Shown here: one piece after another, positions 39,970 to 50,021 of the stretch
Position numbering within the stretch: position 1 is the first letter of the stretch
How the letters are laid out: every line of letters starts with the position of its first letter
Source of the DNA: Clostridium saccharobutylicum DSM 13864
GTDB lineage: Bacteria; Bacillota; Clostridia; Clostridiales; Clostridiaceae
DNA length: 64,000 bases
Assembly (NCBI RefSeq): GCF_000473995.1
Contig: NC_022571.1
Span: 2,635,416-2,699,415, forward strand
Direction: 5' to 3'
Made by a program: the position numbers and the translations under genes
The notes under the pieces: model-generated
The model's input: the letters and a program-made list of their open reading frames with translations, nothing else
Databases searched by the model: none
Told to the model about the DNA's origin: nothing

Positions 39970-41659
39970 GAAGCCACTGAAAAAGTCCTTTTATTATGAA
40001 TTAGCCATGAAATGTTGCTACTAATATTTCATGGCTTTTATGATATAATTATAGTATTAAATGTAAGTAGGTGTTTTTATTGATTAAGCAACAACAAACT
40101 ATGATTTTAAGTCCGTATTCAGGTATATATGACATAGTAGTTCCTAAGGATAATTTATTAAGAAAAATAAATGAATTAATTGATTTTTCATTTATTTATG
40201 ACTAACTTTTGGACAAGTATTGTTTAGATAATGGAAGAAATGCTATCGCTCCGACACGTATGTTTAAATATCTTTTGTTAAAAACTATATTTGATTTATC
40301 AGATATAGATATTGTTGAGCGCTCTAAATATGATATGTCATTCAAATATTTTCTTGATATGGCACCTGAAGATGATGTTATTGATGCAAGCTCATTAACA
40401 AAGTTCCGTAAGCTTAGACTAAAAGACCTAAATCTTTTAGACATGCTAATAAATAAAACTGTAACAGTTGCATTAGAAAAAGGAATCATAAAATCAAAAT
40501 CAGTTATTGTTGACGCTACGCATACTAAGGCTCGTTATAATCAAAAATCACCTCGCGAAATATTACAAGAACGTTCTAAAAAGTTAAGAAAATCAGTTTA
40601 TGAAATAGATGAGACAATGAAAGATATATTTCCAGTAAAAAACACAGTTGATAAATTAGAAGAAGAAATTGTTTATTGCCAAAAATTAATTAAAGCAATA
40701 GAAAGCAATGAACTTTTGGCTTCATTTCCAAAGGTTAAAGAAAAATTAAATTTACTGTCTGAAACTTTAGATGATGATATTGAGCGTCTTAATATTTCGT
40801 CCGATGCGGATGCTAAAATAGGGCATAAAACAGCAGACTCATCATTTTTTGGATATAAAACACATATAGCAATGAGCGAAGAAAGAATTATTACTGCTGC
40901 AGCTATAACAACTGGTGAAAAAAGCGATGGAAAAGAATTAAAGGCACTAATAAATAAAACTATGGACTCAGGTTTTAAAATTGATACTATTATTGGAGAT
41001 GCTGCATATTCTGAAAAGGGAAATATTGAATTTGCAAATGAGAATGATATACAACTTGTTTCAAATCTTAACACTGCTGTAACGCAGGGACATAGAAGAA
41101 AAGAAGATGAGTTTGAATTTAATAAAGATGCTGGAATGTATGTGTGTAAAGCTGGCCACATGGCCTTTCGTAAAGTAAATCAAATTAGAAAAAATAAAAA
41201 CTTAAATAAAGCTGTTTCATATTATTTTGATATAGATAAATGTAAATATTGCTCTTACAAGGAAGGATGCTATAAAGAGTGCTCAAAAAGCAAAACTTAT
41301 ACCGTAACAATAAAAAGTGATGTACATAAAGCGCAGATGGATTTTGAAAAAAGTGAATACTTTAAAGAAAAATCTAAAGAACGCTATAAAATCGAAGCAA
41401 AGAATAGTGAGTTAAAATACAGACATGGGTATGATGTTGCATCATCTTCAGGTCTAGTTGGCATGCAATTGCAAGGTGCCGTCGCAATATTTGCTGTCAA
41501 TTTGAAAAGAATAATAAAACTAATTGGGGGAAAATAAGCCCCCTAAATAACTAAAATACTCAAAAAATAGTATTAATAAAATCAATTTGAATTTTGTTAA
41601 TACTATTTTTGAATATTTTAAAAGTTTCTACTAAAAAACGATAGTTTTTCAGTGGCTTC
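39970..41659 (+). mobile_element. IS1182-family insertion sequence (inactivated)
   Basis: Ends GAAGCCACTGAAAAAGTCC (left) and GAAGCCACTGAAAAACTATC (right, inverted) bound a 1690-bp element with one transposase gene. Internal hairpins at about 40003-40042 (GCCATGAAAT...ATTTCATGGC) and 41564-41612 flank the gene and probably block read-through transcription. TTTAAAAAC occurs directly outside both ends (39961-39969 and 41660-41668), possibly a 9-bp target duplication. The transposase carries an internal stop, so the copy cannot move by itself unless the stop is suppressed. Confidence 0.88.
40080..41537 (+). pseudogene. IS1182-family transposase with an in-frame nonsense codon
   Basis: From TTG 40080 (AGGTG upstream) the frame reads MIKQQQTMILSPYSGIYDIV, then VPKDNLLRKINELIDFSFIY and D, and meets TAA at 40203-40205. 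The same frame then continues without further break from LLDKYCLDNGRNAIAPTRMF to the end (about 485 codons in total). The expected residue in this family (FIYDELVDKY-type) is Glu, so a GAA-to-TAA change fits. DDE-type catalytic regions are intact in the rest (IIVDATHTKARY, IIGDAAYSEKGN, ERYKIEAKNSELKYRHGYD). Only the first 41 codons are cut off. Confidence 0.88.
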
Positions 41660-43238: not shown

Positions 43239-44246
43239 TTACATTGATACTTTACTAAATGAATCCTTAACATACCTATCTAAATCCACTAAATTTTCCA
43301 TATCATATTTTTGTTTTATAGCTTTAAAATACTGCCCAATTACATTCTTTTTTATTATCTTAAAATCTTTATTAGCATAAACATTCGTATCAATATTCCT
43401 AGGTCTTGACAAAATCCATGGAGATTCATTTTGCGCCATTTGTTTCAATATTTTTCCACTATAGCAACTATAAAATTTAATTACACTTTCAACTATGTTT
43501 TTTTCATAATCATTTAAAACTAATTTTTTCTTATTCATTAATTGTTCATTAACTTCATAAAAACCAAATCTTTCATATCGTTCATGAACACTTTTATAAG
43601 CTGGCCCCTCTAGGGAAGCTCTACAATCTTCATTGAATAAAAATTCATCTGTAAACATATAATAGACTGCTTGTACATAATATAAAAGCTTTTGAAGAGA
43701 ATTTAATGTAATGTCTTCACATCTTTCTAAACAATATTTTATTACACTATCAATTTTTTCTTCTACAATACAATTATCTAAAAATATTTTAACACTCTTC
43801 ATACTTTTGTAATAATCTATAATCTTTATTCTATCCTTATTGCTCTGTAATATAGTTAAATAATACCTTGGATATTCATATATTTTTTTTAAAAGGTCAG
43901 AATGATTATGAGTAGGCATATCGCCGTCTAAATATCTCAAAATTGTAGCTTCTTCCCATCCTAATAATAAATTTAAACATTCTTCACTAATACAATACCT
44001 TATTATAATATCATTAATTTGATTTACTTTTATAATATTGTTCTTTTTTCTATATTCTTCATATAATGATTTTAAATTTTCAGAACAGATATGAGAAATA
44101 AAAATTTCATTACCGCAATTTTTACAAACAGCTTCGTTGCCCATGTAACTAATTTCTTCGTCTTTTAAAATAGATGTTTTTTTCACTATGTTTAATTTAT
44201 ATTTTTGTTCACATTCACAATATTCACACAATACTAATTCATCCAC
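43239..44246 (-). CDS. Antitoxin with YgiT/MqsA-type zinc finger, helix-turn-helix and Panacea (SocA/DUF4065) domain
   Basis: 335 aa in three parts. (1) Two Cys pairs, LCEYCECEQKY and EAVCKNCGNEIF, like the MqsA/YgiT zinc finger. (2) A helix-turn-helix-like centre (about 78-130) with LLGWEEATILRYLDGDMPT. (3) A C-terminal Panacea domain (about 178-300): TLNSLQKLLYYVQAVYYMFT, CRASLEGPAYKSVHERYERF and ILKQMAQNESPW. Panacea domains neutralise varied toxins; MqsA fingers bind MqsR. This antitoxin lies 2 bp after the MqsR-like gene in the same operon and should bind the palindrome in their shared promoter (inference). Confidence 0.82.
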   Translation of the reverse strand: MDELVLCEYCECEQKYKLNIVKKTSILKDEEISYMGNEAVCKNCGNEIFISHICSENLKSLYEEYRKKNNIIKVNQINDIIIRYCISEECLNLLLGWEEATILRYLDGDMPTHNHSDLLKKIYEYPRYYLTILQSNKDRIKIIDYYKSMKSVKIFLDNCIVEEKIDSVIKYCLERCEDITLNSLQKLLYYVQAVYYMFTDEFLFNEDCRASLEGPAYKSVHERYERFGFYEVNEQLMNKKKLVLNDYEKNIVESVIKFYSCYSGKILKQMAQNESPWILSRPRNIDTNVYANKDFKIIKKNVIGQYFKAIKQKYDMENLVDLDRYVKDSFSKVSM

Positions 44247-44248
44247 AT

Positions 44249-44680
44249 TTAGCCCTCCTTTTCTAACTTTTGAGTGCCATGTCTAAAAATATATGTAATC
44301 GGCTTATTTCTTTTATGTAAAGATACTATAACTTTGTATTCTTCACATTCATTACGTATTATAGAAAATTTAAGGTATATATCTATTAATTCCTTTTTTC
44401 CTTGTATATTATAAAGTTCCCTTTTAGGACAGAATACATAAAGATCATTCTTTAATATGCCATCTTTCATATTTTTAAGTCCATAACAAAAATCCGTATA
44501 TTCTATATTATATAAAATATCTATACGCTTATTTTCATTTATATTATATTCCTCAATGAACTGAAGATTCTCAATTTTGTTATCATCTAAAGATATTGTA
44601 TATCGCGCATCGCAAACACAATCTTTAATTATTTTAATTAAGCCTTTAATTTGATCTTCAGTGTAATCTTTTATTAACAT
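44249..44680 (-). CDS. Putative MqsR-like toxin
   Basis: 143 aa, small and basic-to-neutral. The centre resembles the MqsR/RelE-like fold: IKDCVCDARYTISLDDNK, FIEEYNINENKRIDILYNIE, TDFCYGLKNMKDGIL, NDLYVFCPKREL, IYLKFSIIRNECEEYKVIVS and LHKRNKPITYIFR. MqsR proteins are mRNA endonucleases; the family call rests on the overall pattern and on pairing with an MqsA-like zinc finger, so it is moderate. GGTGGTGAAAATAGA precedes the ATG. The toxin gene comes first and the antitoxin second, as in mqsRA. Confidence 0.65.
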   Translation of the reverse strand: MLIKDYTEDQIKGLIKIIKDCVCDARYTISLDDNKIENLQFIEEYNINENKRIDILYNIEYTDFCYGLKNMKDGILKNDLYVFCPKRELYNIQGKKELIDIYLKFSIIRNECEEYKVIVSLHKRNKPITYIFRHGTQKLEKEG

Positions 44681-44922: not shown

Positions 44923-45951
44923 TTAATAATAAATTATTCTACTTACAGGTTCTAAACCAGTTGTTTTTTGTTGCTTCATATTACACAAAAAATTTCTAAG
45001 TGCTAGAGATGGGTCAATAGTATCAAACTTTAATGTATCAAATGTTTCTTTATCAAAAACTACTGATAAAATAGTAATATCATAATTTTCGTTAGTTTCA
45101 TCATCTTTAACGGTATCAACTGCATGTACAACAACTTTTTCTACTGGTATAAGTGCCATAATATCTCGTGCAATTCTTATTGCTCCACTGCAAGCATATT
45201 CTTGTACTAAATCATAATATTTTCTTTTACTCATGCGCTCACCACATGGTTTTCCATTTTTGTATGGACCGTTAATTGGTATTACATTAGAAGATTTTAC
45301 TCTAAACTCTACTTCTATAGCACTACCATCATTAGTCCCAACTTCAAATTCACTTCCATAACTCAACAATTCATTAAATGAATTCATCTCATCAATGACT
45401 TGAAAATACGCATCAATATCCCCTTCTATTACTTTCTTTGATAGCATATTTAAATTTTCCCATTGTAAATAAATTTCTTTATCCATTTTTTTAGCTTCTT
45501 GAATCATATTAAATAAACGATTTTTTTTCTTTTTGGCTAAGGATTTAATAATTTTTTCTAAAAATGTTTCTTTGAATTCTTCATATTTGTTAATAGCATT
45601 TTGTTCATTTGGTCCTACAGTTGAAAAATCATATGGTGGTTCTGTAGAGTTAATTTTTTGCCATTCAATAATTTCTTGTCCTCTCTTATGTACAGTTACA
45701 ATTAATTTTAACAATTTATTATACGTATCAACATTCAATTCCTTATTTAACTCTCCAGTTTCTTGTTCATTATTGATAATATTCAGTTTACTTAATTTTT
45801 TTCTATTAAAATTGTTATCATTTTTTATTTTAATAGAACTTAGTGCATATTCAAGTCCCATTTCTCCAAAATCTATTCCTACACCTTTAGAACCTAAATT
45901 CAACTTTGTATCTTTAGAAATTATAAAGCTCCTTTTCATATGTAATCCCAC
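44923..45951 (-). CDS. DUF4236-like protein with unknown C-terminal region
   Basis: 342 aa from a GTG start (GAGGTGATGAT upstream). The N-terminus MGLHMKRSFIISKDTKLNLG then SKGVGIDFGEMGLEYALSS resembles DUF4236 (usually MGxxxRKSxKI..GVRINLSKKGVGxSxG), though it is diverged. The middle (about 70-190) is a long charged helix (WQKINSTEPPYDFSTVGPNE, LEKIIKSLAKKKKNRLF). The C-terminal half (about 205-335) is a compact alpha/beta domain ending DPSLALRNFLCNMKQQKTTG. I do not recognise that domain. It lies next to the helicase-LexA fusion, separated by 215 bp with an inverted repeat. Confidence 0.65.
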   Translation of the reverse strand: MGLHMKRSFIISKDTKLNLGSKGVGIDFGEMGLEYALSSIKIKNDNNFNRKKLSKLNIINNEQETGELNKELNVDTYNKLLKLIVTVHKRGQEIIEWQKINSTEPPYDFSTVGPNEQNAINKYEEFKETFLEKIIKSLAKKKKNRLFNMIQEAKKMDKEIYLQWENLNMLSKKVIEGDIDAYFQVIDEMNSFNELLSYGSEFEVGTNDGSAIEVEFRVKSSNVIPINGPYKNGKPCGERMSKRKYYDLVQEYACSGAIRIARDIMALIPVEKVVVHAVDTVKDDETNENYDITILSVVFDKETFDTLKFDTIDPSLALRNFLCNMKQQKTTGLEPVSRIIYY

Positions 45952-46166: not shown

Positions 46167-47696
46167 TTAATTTTTAATTAATCCAACTGCAATTCCAATT
46201 ATATCGAATTCATTTTCATCTAATATAATAGGCTCATATTTATCATTTTCAGGCATTAATGATATCTTATTATCCTTAATCTTATATGTCTTTAAAGTTG
46301 CTTCTCCTTCAATATCAACCGCTACTATATCCCCAATACTTGCAAAATTTTGTTTATTTATTAACACATAATCTCCATCATTAATATTCTTATTAATCAT
46401 TGAATCTCCTTTAATTTTAAGCATAAAAATATTGGAAGATCCCCTTATCCATGATTTTGGCAACAAATAATTATCAGCAAGTAAATCATTTATTAAAATA
46501 GGATTTCCTGCTGCAATTTCATTGTATACTGGTATATAGCTTAAATCTTCTATCTTTTTTTCTTCTCCATCTTCTTCTATGTAAATCTCATTATTACTTG
46601 AAGAATCCCTTATAAATTCATATGAAACGTTTCTTTTCAAATCAATATACTTAGTAGTATCTAACATGTAAGATTTTTTTGAATCATCTTGTTCCTTTCT
46701 ATAATTATTTATTTTATTTTCTTTTTTAATAGTATAACAAGTATTTGTATTCAATAAATCACACTTATTATATATTTTCTTTAAAGAATTAGATTTTCCT
46801 TTCATATTAAATCCTAAACTCATAAAAGCTTTTTTTCTTGTAAGATAGCCTTTGGGATATTTATTTGCATCCGTATCTATTATAAATGTAATACTAGAAT
46901 ATATTTTGGGGTTATATATAGCTTTCAAAAATTGTAATTGAATTTTTGTTAAAGCTTGACTGTCATCTACTAAAATATGAGTATATTTCTTACAATTCTT
47001 TTTATTGGCTTCGTACAATGCTAAAAGTATTACATCTTGTGAATCAACAATATTACTCTCTCTTAATCTATTGTTATATTCCTTAAAAACTTCATATATT
47101 GCTTCTTTTTGCTTAGAATTTCTTCTAAGTTTTATAACTTTGCCATTCTCTATATTGTTAATTTTTCCTGACCTTCGTGCAATTTGATACTCTTCACAAT
47201 TAGTATAATTACAAGATTTAATCCAATTAATTTCTTCTTGAATAAAATTAAAATATTCATTATTTAAAAACTTTAATTTCTTATATTGTTTGCCTACTAT
47301 CTTTATAGCAGATATAAGTATATTTTCACATTCAATATTAGATGCAATTTCTAATTTTAAATTATGCGATTTTTTATAATCATTAAAATAGCAAATAATT
47401 AAACTATCTATTGTTTTAATCTCTAATTTGTAGCTATTATCTTCATCAAAAAAACTACTTTGAATATATTTATCTTGTTCTATATTATCATATATATAAG
47501 ATACATAATTCAAAGCTTGTTCATTATAAGTAACCATTAAAACTCTATCAGTTTTATCAATACAATAATGCTTAAGCAATCCTGGAATTTTATTAGTTGC
47601 CACAGTAGTCTTTCCAGTTCCCTCTGCTCCTTTAATCAATCTATGACCATTTGGTTTACTCTTAATAATTCTTATTTGTTCTGCACTAAATTGCAT
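46167..47696 (-). CDS. UvrD-type helicase N-terminal domain fused to a LexA-like S24 self-cleavage domain
   Basis: 509 aa. N-terminus: Q motif (FSAEQIRII), Walker A GAEGTGKTT (23-31), MVTYNEQAL (Ia-like) and HILVDDSQALTKIQLQFL (Walker B at 243-247, VDDSQ instead of DEAQ), then IIDTDANKYPKG (motif III-like). Motifs IV-VI are missing, and a Lys/Asn-rich linker (about 300-385) leads into a complete LexA module. That module has cleavage site A396-G397 (IAAGNP), catalytic Ser432 (GDSM) and Lys469 (ATLKTY), the same 37-residue Ser-Lys spacing as in E. coli LexA. No DNA-binding winged helix is present. It probably has RecA-triggered or DNA-damage-triggered autoproteolysis of an ATPase (inference). 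Confidence 0.88.
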   Translation of the reverse strand: MQFSAEQIRIIKSKPNGHRLIKGAEGTGKTTVATNKIPGLLKHYCIDKTDRVLMVTYNEQALNYVSYIYDNIEQDKYIQSSFFDEDNSYKLEIKTIDSLIICYFNDYKKSHNLKLEIASNIECENILISAIKIVGKQYKKLKFLNNEYFNFIQEEINWIKSCNYTNCEEYQIARRSGKINNIENGKVIKLRRNSKQKEAIYEVFKEYNNRLRESNIVDSQDVILLALYEANKKNCKKYTHILVDDSQALTKIQLQFLKAIYNPKIYSSITFIIDTDANKYPKGYLTRKKAFMSLGFNMKGKSNSLKKIYNKCDLLNTNTCYTIKKENKINNYRKEQDDSKKSYMLDTTKYIDLKRNVSYEFIRDSSSNNEIYIEEDGEEKKIEDLSYIPVYNEIAAGNPILINDLLADNYLLPKSWIRGSSNIFMLKIKGDSMINKNINDGDYVLINKQNFASIGDIVAVDIEGEATLKTYKIKDNKISLMPENDKYEPIILDENEFDIIGIAVGLIKN

Positions 47697-47918
47697 CTTA
47701 ATCCCTCTTTACCATTGCTATTTTTATTATATTTTACTCTATTCTTCTGGTATATGTAAAGATTAACTTATAATATGTAATCATAGAATATTATTTTCAT
47801 TCAATTTTAAAAAGCAAAATTGTTATCTTGTTCTTTATGTTAAATTAATAATATTTGCATCTTAATAAAGATTTAAATATAATTAACATATAATTTATGT
47901 CAAAAGGAGACAAGTGTA

Positions 47919-48497: not shown

Positions 48498-50021
48498 GGG
48501 ACAGTAGATAGTTTTGTGTAAAAAACAAAACTATCTACTGTTTTTTTACATAATCAGTTGGTAGTTTTGGAATAATATACATAAAGAATAAAGGAGGAAT
48601 ATGTATGTCAAAACCAATTGATGATGACTTTGATTACAAAGCTGAGGTAAAGAAATGTAAGACTATCGATGATGTCATGGGTAAAAATGGTTTAATTCAA
48701 AGATTAGTTAAAGATGTGTTAGAAAATATTTTAGAAGGTGAAATGGAAGAACACCTTGGAAGAAATAAATATCAAAGAGCAGAAACTAATGATTCTACAA
48801 AAAAGAATTATCGAAATGGATATAGTACCAAAAATCTTAGAAGTTCTTTCGGTGACGTCGATTTAGACGTACCAAGAGATAGGAATGCTGAATTTGAGCC
48901 ACAAATTATAAAGAAATACGAAACTGTGTGTACAGAATTAGATAAAAAGGTGATTTCTCTTTACGCAAAAGGAATGACCACAAGTGATATTCAAGCAGAA
49001 ATAGAGGACTTATATGGAATAACAATATCACCTTCTATGGTATCTAGAATTACAGATAAAGTTATGGAAAGTGCTGTTGAGTGGCAAAATAGATCACTAG
49101 ATAAAGTTTATCCAATAGTGTATTTGGATGCTATGTATTTCAAGGTGCGAAGCAATGGAAAGATTATGAATAAAGCTGTTTATATATGCTTAGGATACAA
49201 CATGCAAGGATACAAAGAAATTTTAGGAAGTTGGGTAGATGAAGCTGAGGGTGCTAAGTTTTGGTTAAAGATATGCACTGATCTTAAAAATAGAGGCGTA
49301 CGAGAAATCCTTATAGCATGTATGGACGGATTAAAGGGGTTACCAGAAGCCATTAAAACTGTATTTCCATCAGTTAACATTCAAACATGTATTGTTCACC
49401 AAATAAGAAACTCAGTTAAGTATATAGCATCAAAAGATAAGAAAGAATTTATTAAAGATTTAAAATGTGTTTATAAGGCTTCAACTGAGGAACTTGCGCT
49501 AGCGCAGCTCGATAATTTAAAGGATAAGTGGGGAGATAAATATGCTATTGTAATAGATTCGTGGTATAACAATTGGAGTCACCTATCAACATTCTTCACT
49601 TTCTCTCCTGAAATAAGAAAAATGATATATACAACTAATACGCTTGAAGGATTTAACAGACAAATACGTAAGTATACTAAATCAAGAACTGTATTTCCAA
49701 CCGATGAATCTTTAAGTAAATGTGTTTATCTAGCTACTATGGAAATTATAGAAAAGTGGACTCAACCAACACCAAATTGGGGTCGTACTTTAGCAGAATT
49801 ATCAATAGTATTTGAAGAACAATTAAATGATGAATTAGCTTAATAGCTTGTACTTTTTACTAAACTTTATGTATAATATCTGATTTTTCACTAATACTAT
49901 AAATGGATATAAAACATATTTTTAGCATTTACTAAAAATAAAAAAATATTACTGGACCATAAAATTTCCAGTAATATTTAAATAACAAATATACTAATAA
50001 CACAAAATTATCTAGAGTCCC
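48498..50021 (+). mobile_element. Intact IS256-family insertion sequence with 8-bp target duplication
   Basis: Ends GGGACAGTAGATAGTTTTGT (left) and GGGACTCTAGATAATTTTGT (right, inverted) define 1524 bp. TAATAATA occurs directly outside both ends (48490-48497 and 50022-50029), an 8-bp target duplication typical of IS256. Hairpins just inside each end (48501-48541; 49943-49980) probably block transcription from outside. The single transposase gene is intact, so insertion is recent. Confidence 0.93.
48605..49843 (+). CDS. IS256-family (MULE-type DDE) transposase
   Basis: 412 aa, full length. DDE residues: PIVYLDAMYFKVRS (first Asp), LIACMDGLKGLPEAI (second Asp) and TTNTLEGFNRQIRK (Glu). Also typical are EMEEHLGRNKYQRAE, YRNGYSTKNL and IQTCIVHQIRNSVKYI (C/H motif). 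AAAGGAGGAATATGT before ATG. No frameshift or stop; should be active. Confidence 0.96.
   Translation: MSKPIDDDFDYKAEVKKCKTIDDVMGKNGLIQRLVKDVLENILEGEMEEHLGRNKYQRAETNDSTKKNYRNGYSTKNLRSSFGDVDLDVPRDRNAEFEPQIIKKYETVCTELDKKVISLYAKGMTTSDIQAEIEDLYGITISPSMVSRITDKVMESAVEWQNRSLDKVYPIVYLDAMYFKVRSNGKIMNKAVYICLGYNMQGYKEILGSWVDEAEGAKFWLKICTDLKNRGVREILIACMDGLKGLPEAIKTVFPSVNIQTCIVHQIRNSVKYIASKDKKEFIKDLKCVYKASTEELALAQLDNLKDKWGDKYAIVIDSWYNNWSHLSTFFTFSPEIRKMIYTTNTLEGFNRQIRKYTKSRTVFPTDESLSKCVYLATMEIIEKWTQPTPNWGRTLAELSIVFEEQLNDELA

Follow-up and report, generated by a model that had tools for sequence, protein, structure and literature searches.

Self-cleavage by S24 domains is known for repressors (LexA and CI) and for UmuD, a small stand-alone protein that is LexA regulated and activated by cleavage. 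In IrvR and HdiR, S24 self-cleavage exposes a C-terminal degron for Clp (PMC7101444); both are LexA-like helix-turn-helix (HTH) repressors, and for IrvR, RecA is not required for cleavage (PMC7101444). Here, we describe a gene in Clostridium saccharobutylicum DSM 13864, within an analyzed stretch of 64,000 nucleotides (the window), that joins an S24 domain to a helicase-derived N-terminal half. The product resembles LexA (TIGR00498) in its S24 domain, in its Ala-Gly site, in the Ser and Lys 37 residues apart and probably in RecA-responsive self-cleavage, but it has a 310-residue pseudo-helicase instead of the winged-helix domain, and the gene has no SOS box. Like UmuD (NF007621, the autoproteolytic subunit of Pol V), it carries a self-cleaving S24 module in what is apparently not a repressor; it differs in its size (509 aa), its large N-terminal half, the lack of a LexA box and a score of 69.7 bits, below the NF007621 cutoff of 110. 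It shares the Q motif, the P loop and a 1A/1B-like region with the SF1A helicases UvrD, PcrA and Rep but lacks the Walker B glutamate, motif III, and motifs IV to VI, and unlike IrvR and HdiR, it has no HTH. The literature that we searched contained no description of this fusion, of a pseudo-helicase output, or of a helicase-nuclease-S24 ancestor. We propose, with belief and doubt about equally weighted, that the fusion is a damage-sensitive self-destruct switch in which the pseudo-helicase would be removed after RecA-triggered self-cleavage.

The first-pass annotation of the locus described a single protein made of a helicase-type N terminus and a LexA/S24 domain, and both the open reading frame (ORF) and the Pfam matches bear this out. 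The ORF begins with ATG, and relatives with 51 to 56% identity can be aligned with it from end to end (residues 1 to 509), which excludes a frameshift or joining artifact. Its main parts are as follows.

46167..47696, minus strand: pseudo-helicase/S24 fusion gene, 509 aa, one uninterrupted ORF
46764..47696, minus strand: UvrD-type N-terminal region, residues 1 to 311, from PF00580 and alignment with complete helicases
46545..46649, minus strand: conserved linker YIDLKR..YEFIRDSS..EIYI, residues 350 to 384, from the alignment
46170..46532, minus strand: S24/LexA-type self-cleavage domain, residues 389 to 509, from PF00717 and matches to LexA and UmuD in the PDB

Homologues with the same two halves, a search for which the first-pass annotation had proposed, occur in many Clostridiaceae genomes. 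With residues 1 to 311 as the query, matches were found in 123 of 208 genomes and 26 of 46 genera of this family. In more than half of these genomes, S24 self-cleavage is apparently a fixed feature of a protein derived from a helicase. Two members have the gene in a form identical to that of C. thailandense and C. caldaquaticum (L007 = L167 and L006 = L134), which identifies the family as Clostridiaceae. A genus-level search (69 genomes) gave full-length relatives at 46 to 56% identity as well as more distant ones, and when 391 genomes sampled across the class were searched, the sole match beyond Clostridiaceae was a stretch of 95 residues in a broken long-form gene. We aligned 99 members, comprising 68 short forms (469 to 544 aa), 25 long forms (810 to 848 aa), and 6 helicase-only forms without S24. 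The long forms have the domains UvrD_N, UvrD_C, HSDR_N_2 and S24, that is, a complete UvrD helicase, a nuclease and an S24 domain. They retain DExQ (25/25), the nuclease D...ExK (24/25, and 12/12 in other families) and, as read in aligned examples, motifs V/VI (TMHSIKGLEFK and VGMTRA). Long forms occur in further Bacillota as well, and an Ilyobacter megaplasmid (Fusobacteriota) carries one; there, the database record names the protein "S24 family peptidase." An assignment as a phage gene was rejected, as tblastn to phages matched S24 alone and the retained viral contigs matched mainly the S24 end; a plasmid gene was rejected as well, with most of the query covered only by the Ilyobacter long form. 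Among the relatives without S24, three have also lost the nuclease ExK (L065, L067, and L068, with IKSNK or IKTNR), and three stop before the nuclease (L056, L059, and L066).

The S24 half carries the residues expected of a self-cleaving domain.

46506..46511, minus strand: predicted scissile bond Ala396-Gly397, within I394-A395-A396-G397 in 68/68 short forms
46401..46403, minus strand: catalytic Ser432, in 68/68 short and 25/25 long forms
46290..46292, minus strand: catalytic Lys469, in 68/68 short and 25/25 long forms

Pfam Peptidase_S24 (PF00717) covers residues 389 to 504 with 104.9 bits (cutoff, 23.3), and the half also scores 116.3 bits against TIGR00498 lexA, above the cutoff of 110.95. 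It matches LexA in the PDB (E = 1.7e-21) and is homologous to the LexA/UmuD chains of entries 8trg, 8gms, and 8gmt, which we take to be RecA-filament complexes. The cleavage site and catalytic pair had been named correctly from the sequence at first reading, as had their spacing: Ser and Lys are 37 residues apart here and in Escherichia coli LexA (S119-K156), and the distance from site to Ser is 36 against 35 in E. coli LexA (A84-S119). Retention of these residues by homologues had been set beforehand as a refutation test, and A, G, S, and K are present in all 68 short relatives. Judging from this invariance, the fusion protein very likely cleaves itself. A RecA filament is a plausible trigger, favored by the logic of LexA and UmuD, with IrvR as a counterexample; the RecA interface of LexA-type proteins may also vary between phyla (PMC3834820). 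The genome of the window encodes both RecA and ClpX.

The N-terminal half, presumably corresponding to domains 1A plus 1B of PcrA/UvrD, matches Pfam UvrD-helicase (PF00580, UvrD_N) over residues 5 to 275 with 65.3 bits (cutoff, 23).

47604..47630, minus strand: Walker A/P loop GAEGTGKTT, residues 23 to 31, with the invariant Lys29
46956..46970, minus strand: degenerate Walker B VDDSQ, residues 243 to 247, with Asp for the catalytic Glu at 245, from the alignment

The Q motif (Q7) and Walker A of the first-pass annotation are both present, and the P-loop lysine is found in 68/68 short and 25/25 long forms. Its Walker B had to be revised: VDDSQ does occur, yet the catalytic glutamate of DExQ is an aspartate, and therefore the name ATPase is not established for the fusion. 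This glutamate is present in 25/25 long but only 15/68 short forms (lost in 53/68; the window copy has DD), and all except one of the short forms that keep it fall outside the clade of the window copy; weak ATPase activity is thus possible in some. The Walker B aspartate is retained in 66/68 short forms. The motif III glutamine, present in 25/25 long forms, remains in 2/68 short forms (lost in 66/68). The motif Ia lysine, which contacts single-stranded DNA in SF1A helicases, is found in 92% of the long forms; a glutamate stands at this position in 86% of the window's clade. Motifs IV to VI (domain 2A) and the nuclease are absent from all 68 short forms, and UvrD_C occurs only in the long and helicase-only forms; the absence of these motifs and of an HTH from the fusion had been noticed from the start. 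The core residues E155 and H240, by comparison, are kept in 68/68 short forms.

With the Walker B glutamate, motif III, the motif Ia lysine, and domain 2A gone, ATP turnover and translocation are unlikely. By its residues, the short form is best described as a pseudo-helicase that keeps its self-cleavage module and in which nucleotide is likely bound but not hydrolyzed, and its N-terminal half appears to be no longer a motor and still useful. These losses leave the first-pass proposal that cleavage would release or inactivate an ATPase without support. That cleavage frees an active ATPase or helicase domain is compatible with the retained P loop (GxGTGKTT), but given the missing glutamate, motif III, motif Ia lysine, and motifs IV to VI, we consider it very improbable. 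A profile search of the PDB with divergent short N-terminal halves gave HelD as the only match (E = 0.03). A structure model built from three sequences had a pLDDT of 54.6, and in this low-confidence model, strands are predicted in the linker region at residues 346 to 352 and 357 to 363.

We then considered how the gene is expressed and what would become of the cleaved protein. The following elements lie upstream of the start codon.

47702..47708, minus strand: putative ribosome-binding site AGAGGGA, identified by eye
47731..47736, minus strand: putative −10 element TAAAAT, separated by an 18-base spacer from the −35 element of the inferred promoter
47755..47760, minus strand: putative −35 element TTTACA, by eye

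In the window's clade, the upstream region contains a conserved −10-like block, TATAATTAC. A second block in the promoter region of this clade, TATAGTATAATTACA, is strongly conserved (L041, L044, L045, L047, L058, and others) and partly diverged in the window copy. No LexA box (GAACN4GTTY) was found within 220 to 300 bp upstream of the fusion gene; such a box precedes 1 of 103 family genes, and both lexA genes of the same genome have GAAC-N4-GTTT. The protein is therefore expected to be present before damage. Clade alignments of the upstream regions showed no operator or palindrome. If the protein were a transcriptional repressor of the LexA kind whose DNA-binding half is unusual, this would agree with the above-cutoff match to TIGR00498, which covers the S24 part only; with no HTH by Pfam, no operator-like palindrome seen upstream, and no constant neighbor gene, this reading has very little probability, and gene repression is probably not what the switch acts on.

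The lack of an SOS box is also what would be expected if cleavage were independent of RecA, as in IrvR (PMC7101444), and gated by a P-loop ligand or partner, so that the protein would sense something other than DNA damage. An invariant P-loop lysine without hydrolysis machinery does suggest ligand sensing. However, the S24 domain is close to LexA and UmuD in all catalytic features, and most known S24 members are RecA dependent, which makes this explanation quite unlikely. Under the preferred reading, a damage-sensitive self-destruct switch, the N-terminal fragment left after cleavage at the predicted bond would end in ...NEIAA. The penultimate alanine is found in 68/68 short forms but varies among phage S24 sites (34/56), and it is absent from the canonical LexAs of the compared genomes, which carry TAG at the site. 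LexA-type cleavage exposes Clp degrons (PMC7101444), and together with the ...IAA end and the invariant alanine, this suggests that the N-terminal half would be destroyed rather than released.

To place the short form in the family, we used a tree rooted with S24-less UvrD-like proteins. The long forms are basal and paraphyletic, and the short forms make up two well-supported clades, with that of the window nested among Clostridium long forms. A single short-form clade was modestly rejected (AU P = 0.031; 38 rows). In a separate S24 tree, the window copy likewise falls among Clostridium long forms (95), and the S24 domains of the fusions (99) are apart from LexA (100) and phage S24. These trees have long branches and come from a quick search, with few columns for S24; read with this in mind, they indicate that the long form is likely ancestral and that the short form was derived twice, the second time in the window's clade. 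Both halves of the short form are under purifying selection: in nine pairs of short forms, dN/dS was 0.09 to 0.31 for the N-terminal half and 0.03 to 0.12 for S24. Conservation in the short forms is higher in S24 than in the N-terminal half (0.75 versus 0.55 and 0.58 versus 0.35), and in the long forms, it is about equal (0.54 versus 0.57). The self-cleavage residues are invariant and the motor residues decaying in an architecture that has apparently arisen twice.

Constraint in the short form is strongest on S24, which could also mean that this domain serves mainly to dock on RecA filaments, buffering the SOS response by competition with LexA or recruiting the pseudo-helicase to the filaments, with cleavage as turnover. 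The homology to the chains of 8trg, 8gms, and 8gmt and expression outside LexA control agree with such a role, but a pure decoy needs no 310-residue P-loop half held at the dN/dS values given above, and we regard docking as unlikely to be the main function.

The genomic settings of the two forms differ. Neighbors of the short forms include ABC, HAD, and aminotransferase genes, constant within a clade and differing between clades, and no conserved operon partner that would point to a target was found across clades. The long forms are found next to type I, type IV, and GmrSD restriction genes, a retron RT, ZorA, MTES_1575, and DUF3427. At seven loci (L054, L055, L057, L159, L160, L161, and L175), a NERD-HRDC gene lies directly upstream of the long form on the same strand, with a gap of 7 to 58 nt; at L164, it is downstream. 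The long form with NERD-HRDC in restriction/defense islands is a candidate for an uncharacterized defense operon, although the defense association describes a trend rather than a number of systems, because PADLOC tallies are per protein and some families are generic. In PADLOC, the long form matches C3a187 NERD+UvrD (137 bits) and GajB (117 bits), and Gabija GajB is the best match of the fusion's N-terminal half (36.7 bits). The fusion differs from Gabija and NERD-UvrD in carrying S24 and, in the window form, in lacking a motor; PADLOC found no GajA among the four neighbors scanned.

The anti-phage role suggested at first reading thus fits the long form, often found among defense genes, better than the short relatives, which lie among housekeeping genes. 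In an anti-phage or restriction system, S24 would arm or disarm the helicase-nuclease on phage damage, and the short form would be its regulator or antagonist. The long relatives, with motifs I to III and V/VI intact, a nuclease ExK in nearly all, and defense neighbors, speak for this. The short forms have neither nuclease nor motor and sit beside ABC, HAD, and aminotransferase genes; in most genomes they have no accompanying long form, co-occurrence of the two is not significant (Fisher P = 0.10), and no long form was found in the window genome. We judge this account to be improbable for the fusion.

The self-destruct reading draws on the fusion belonging to a common clostridial family that was apparently twice derived from a defense-type helicase-nuclease. 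The ancestor would have been a long protein with a UvrD helicase, a PD-(D/E)xK nuclease of the HSDR_N type and S24, typical of defense islands, from which the window's lineage would have lost the motor half (domain 2A, motifs IV to VI) and the nuclease. The remaining P-loop pseudo-helicase (about domains 1A plus 1B) would bind nucleotide without translocating. Made before damage and probably dimerized through S24, the protein would dock by this domain on RecA filaments as they form and cleave itself at Ala396-Gly397. The N-terminal fragment would then become a ClpXP substrate and be destroyed, ending whatever the pseudo-helicase held or blocked. The twice-arisen architecture and the invariant cleavage residues suggest that clostridial DNA damage may remove a protein by a route outside the LexA regulon. 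More tentatively, and on balance with more doubt than belief, the family could be a posttranslational SOS switch, neither repressor nor polymerase subunit, that evolved twice in Clostridiaceae from a self-limiting UvrD-HSDR_N-S24 protein, the ancestral defense helicase-nuclease carrying its own damage-triggered fuse. Such an ancestor suggests a built-in switch by which RecA would turn the defense helicase-nuclease off (or on), with a logic like that of restriction alleviation.

The immediate surroundings of the window copy had been described as an IS-bounded island with a toxin-antitoxin pair. This holds within the window, where IS-type transposases lie at 40209-41537 and 48605-49843, but relatives occupy other, housekeeping settings. 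As the neighbors of short forms are clade-specific transport and metabolism genes, the island is probably incidental. Between the fusion and the first transposase, two adjoining genes are arranged as in a toxin-antitoxin pair.

43239-44246, minus strand: MqsA-like N terminus joined to a SocA/Panacea domain
44249-44680, minus strand: 143-aa gene of no known family

Downstream of the fusion, a gene at 44923-45951 (minus strand) encodes a 342-aa protein with nothing above cutoff in Pfam, NCBIfam or PADLOC. Elsewhere in the genome, a second LexA paralog (L003; G000:C1:1760696-1761037, plus strand) has Glu-Gly (IREIKEGYP) in place of Ala-Gly, and a LexA paralog of another genome (L193; G003:C28) has Asp-Gly (VVDGVP). 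Both keep the Ser and Lys, pair together in the S24 tree, and look uncleavable.
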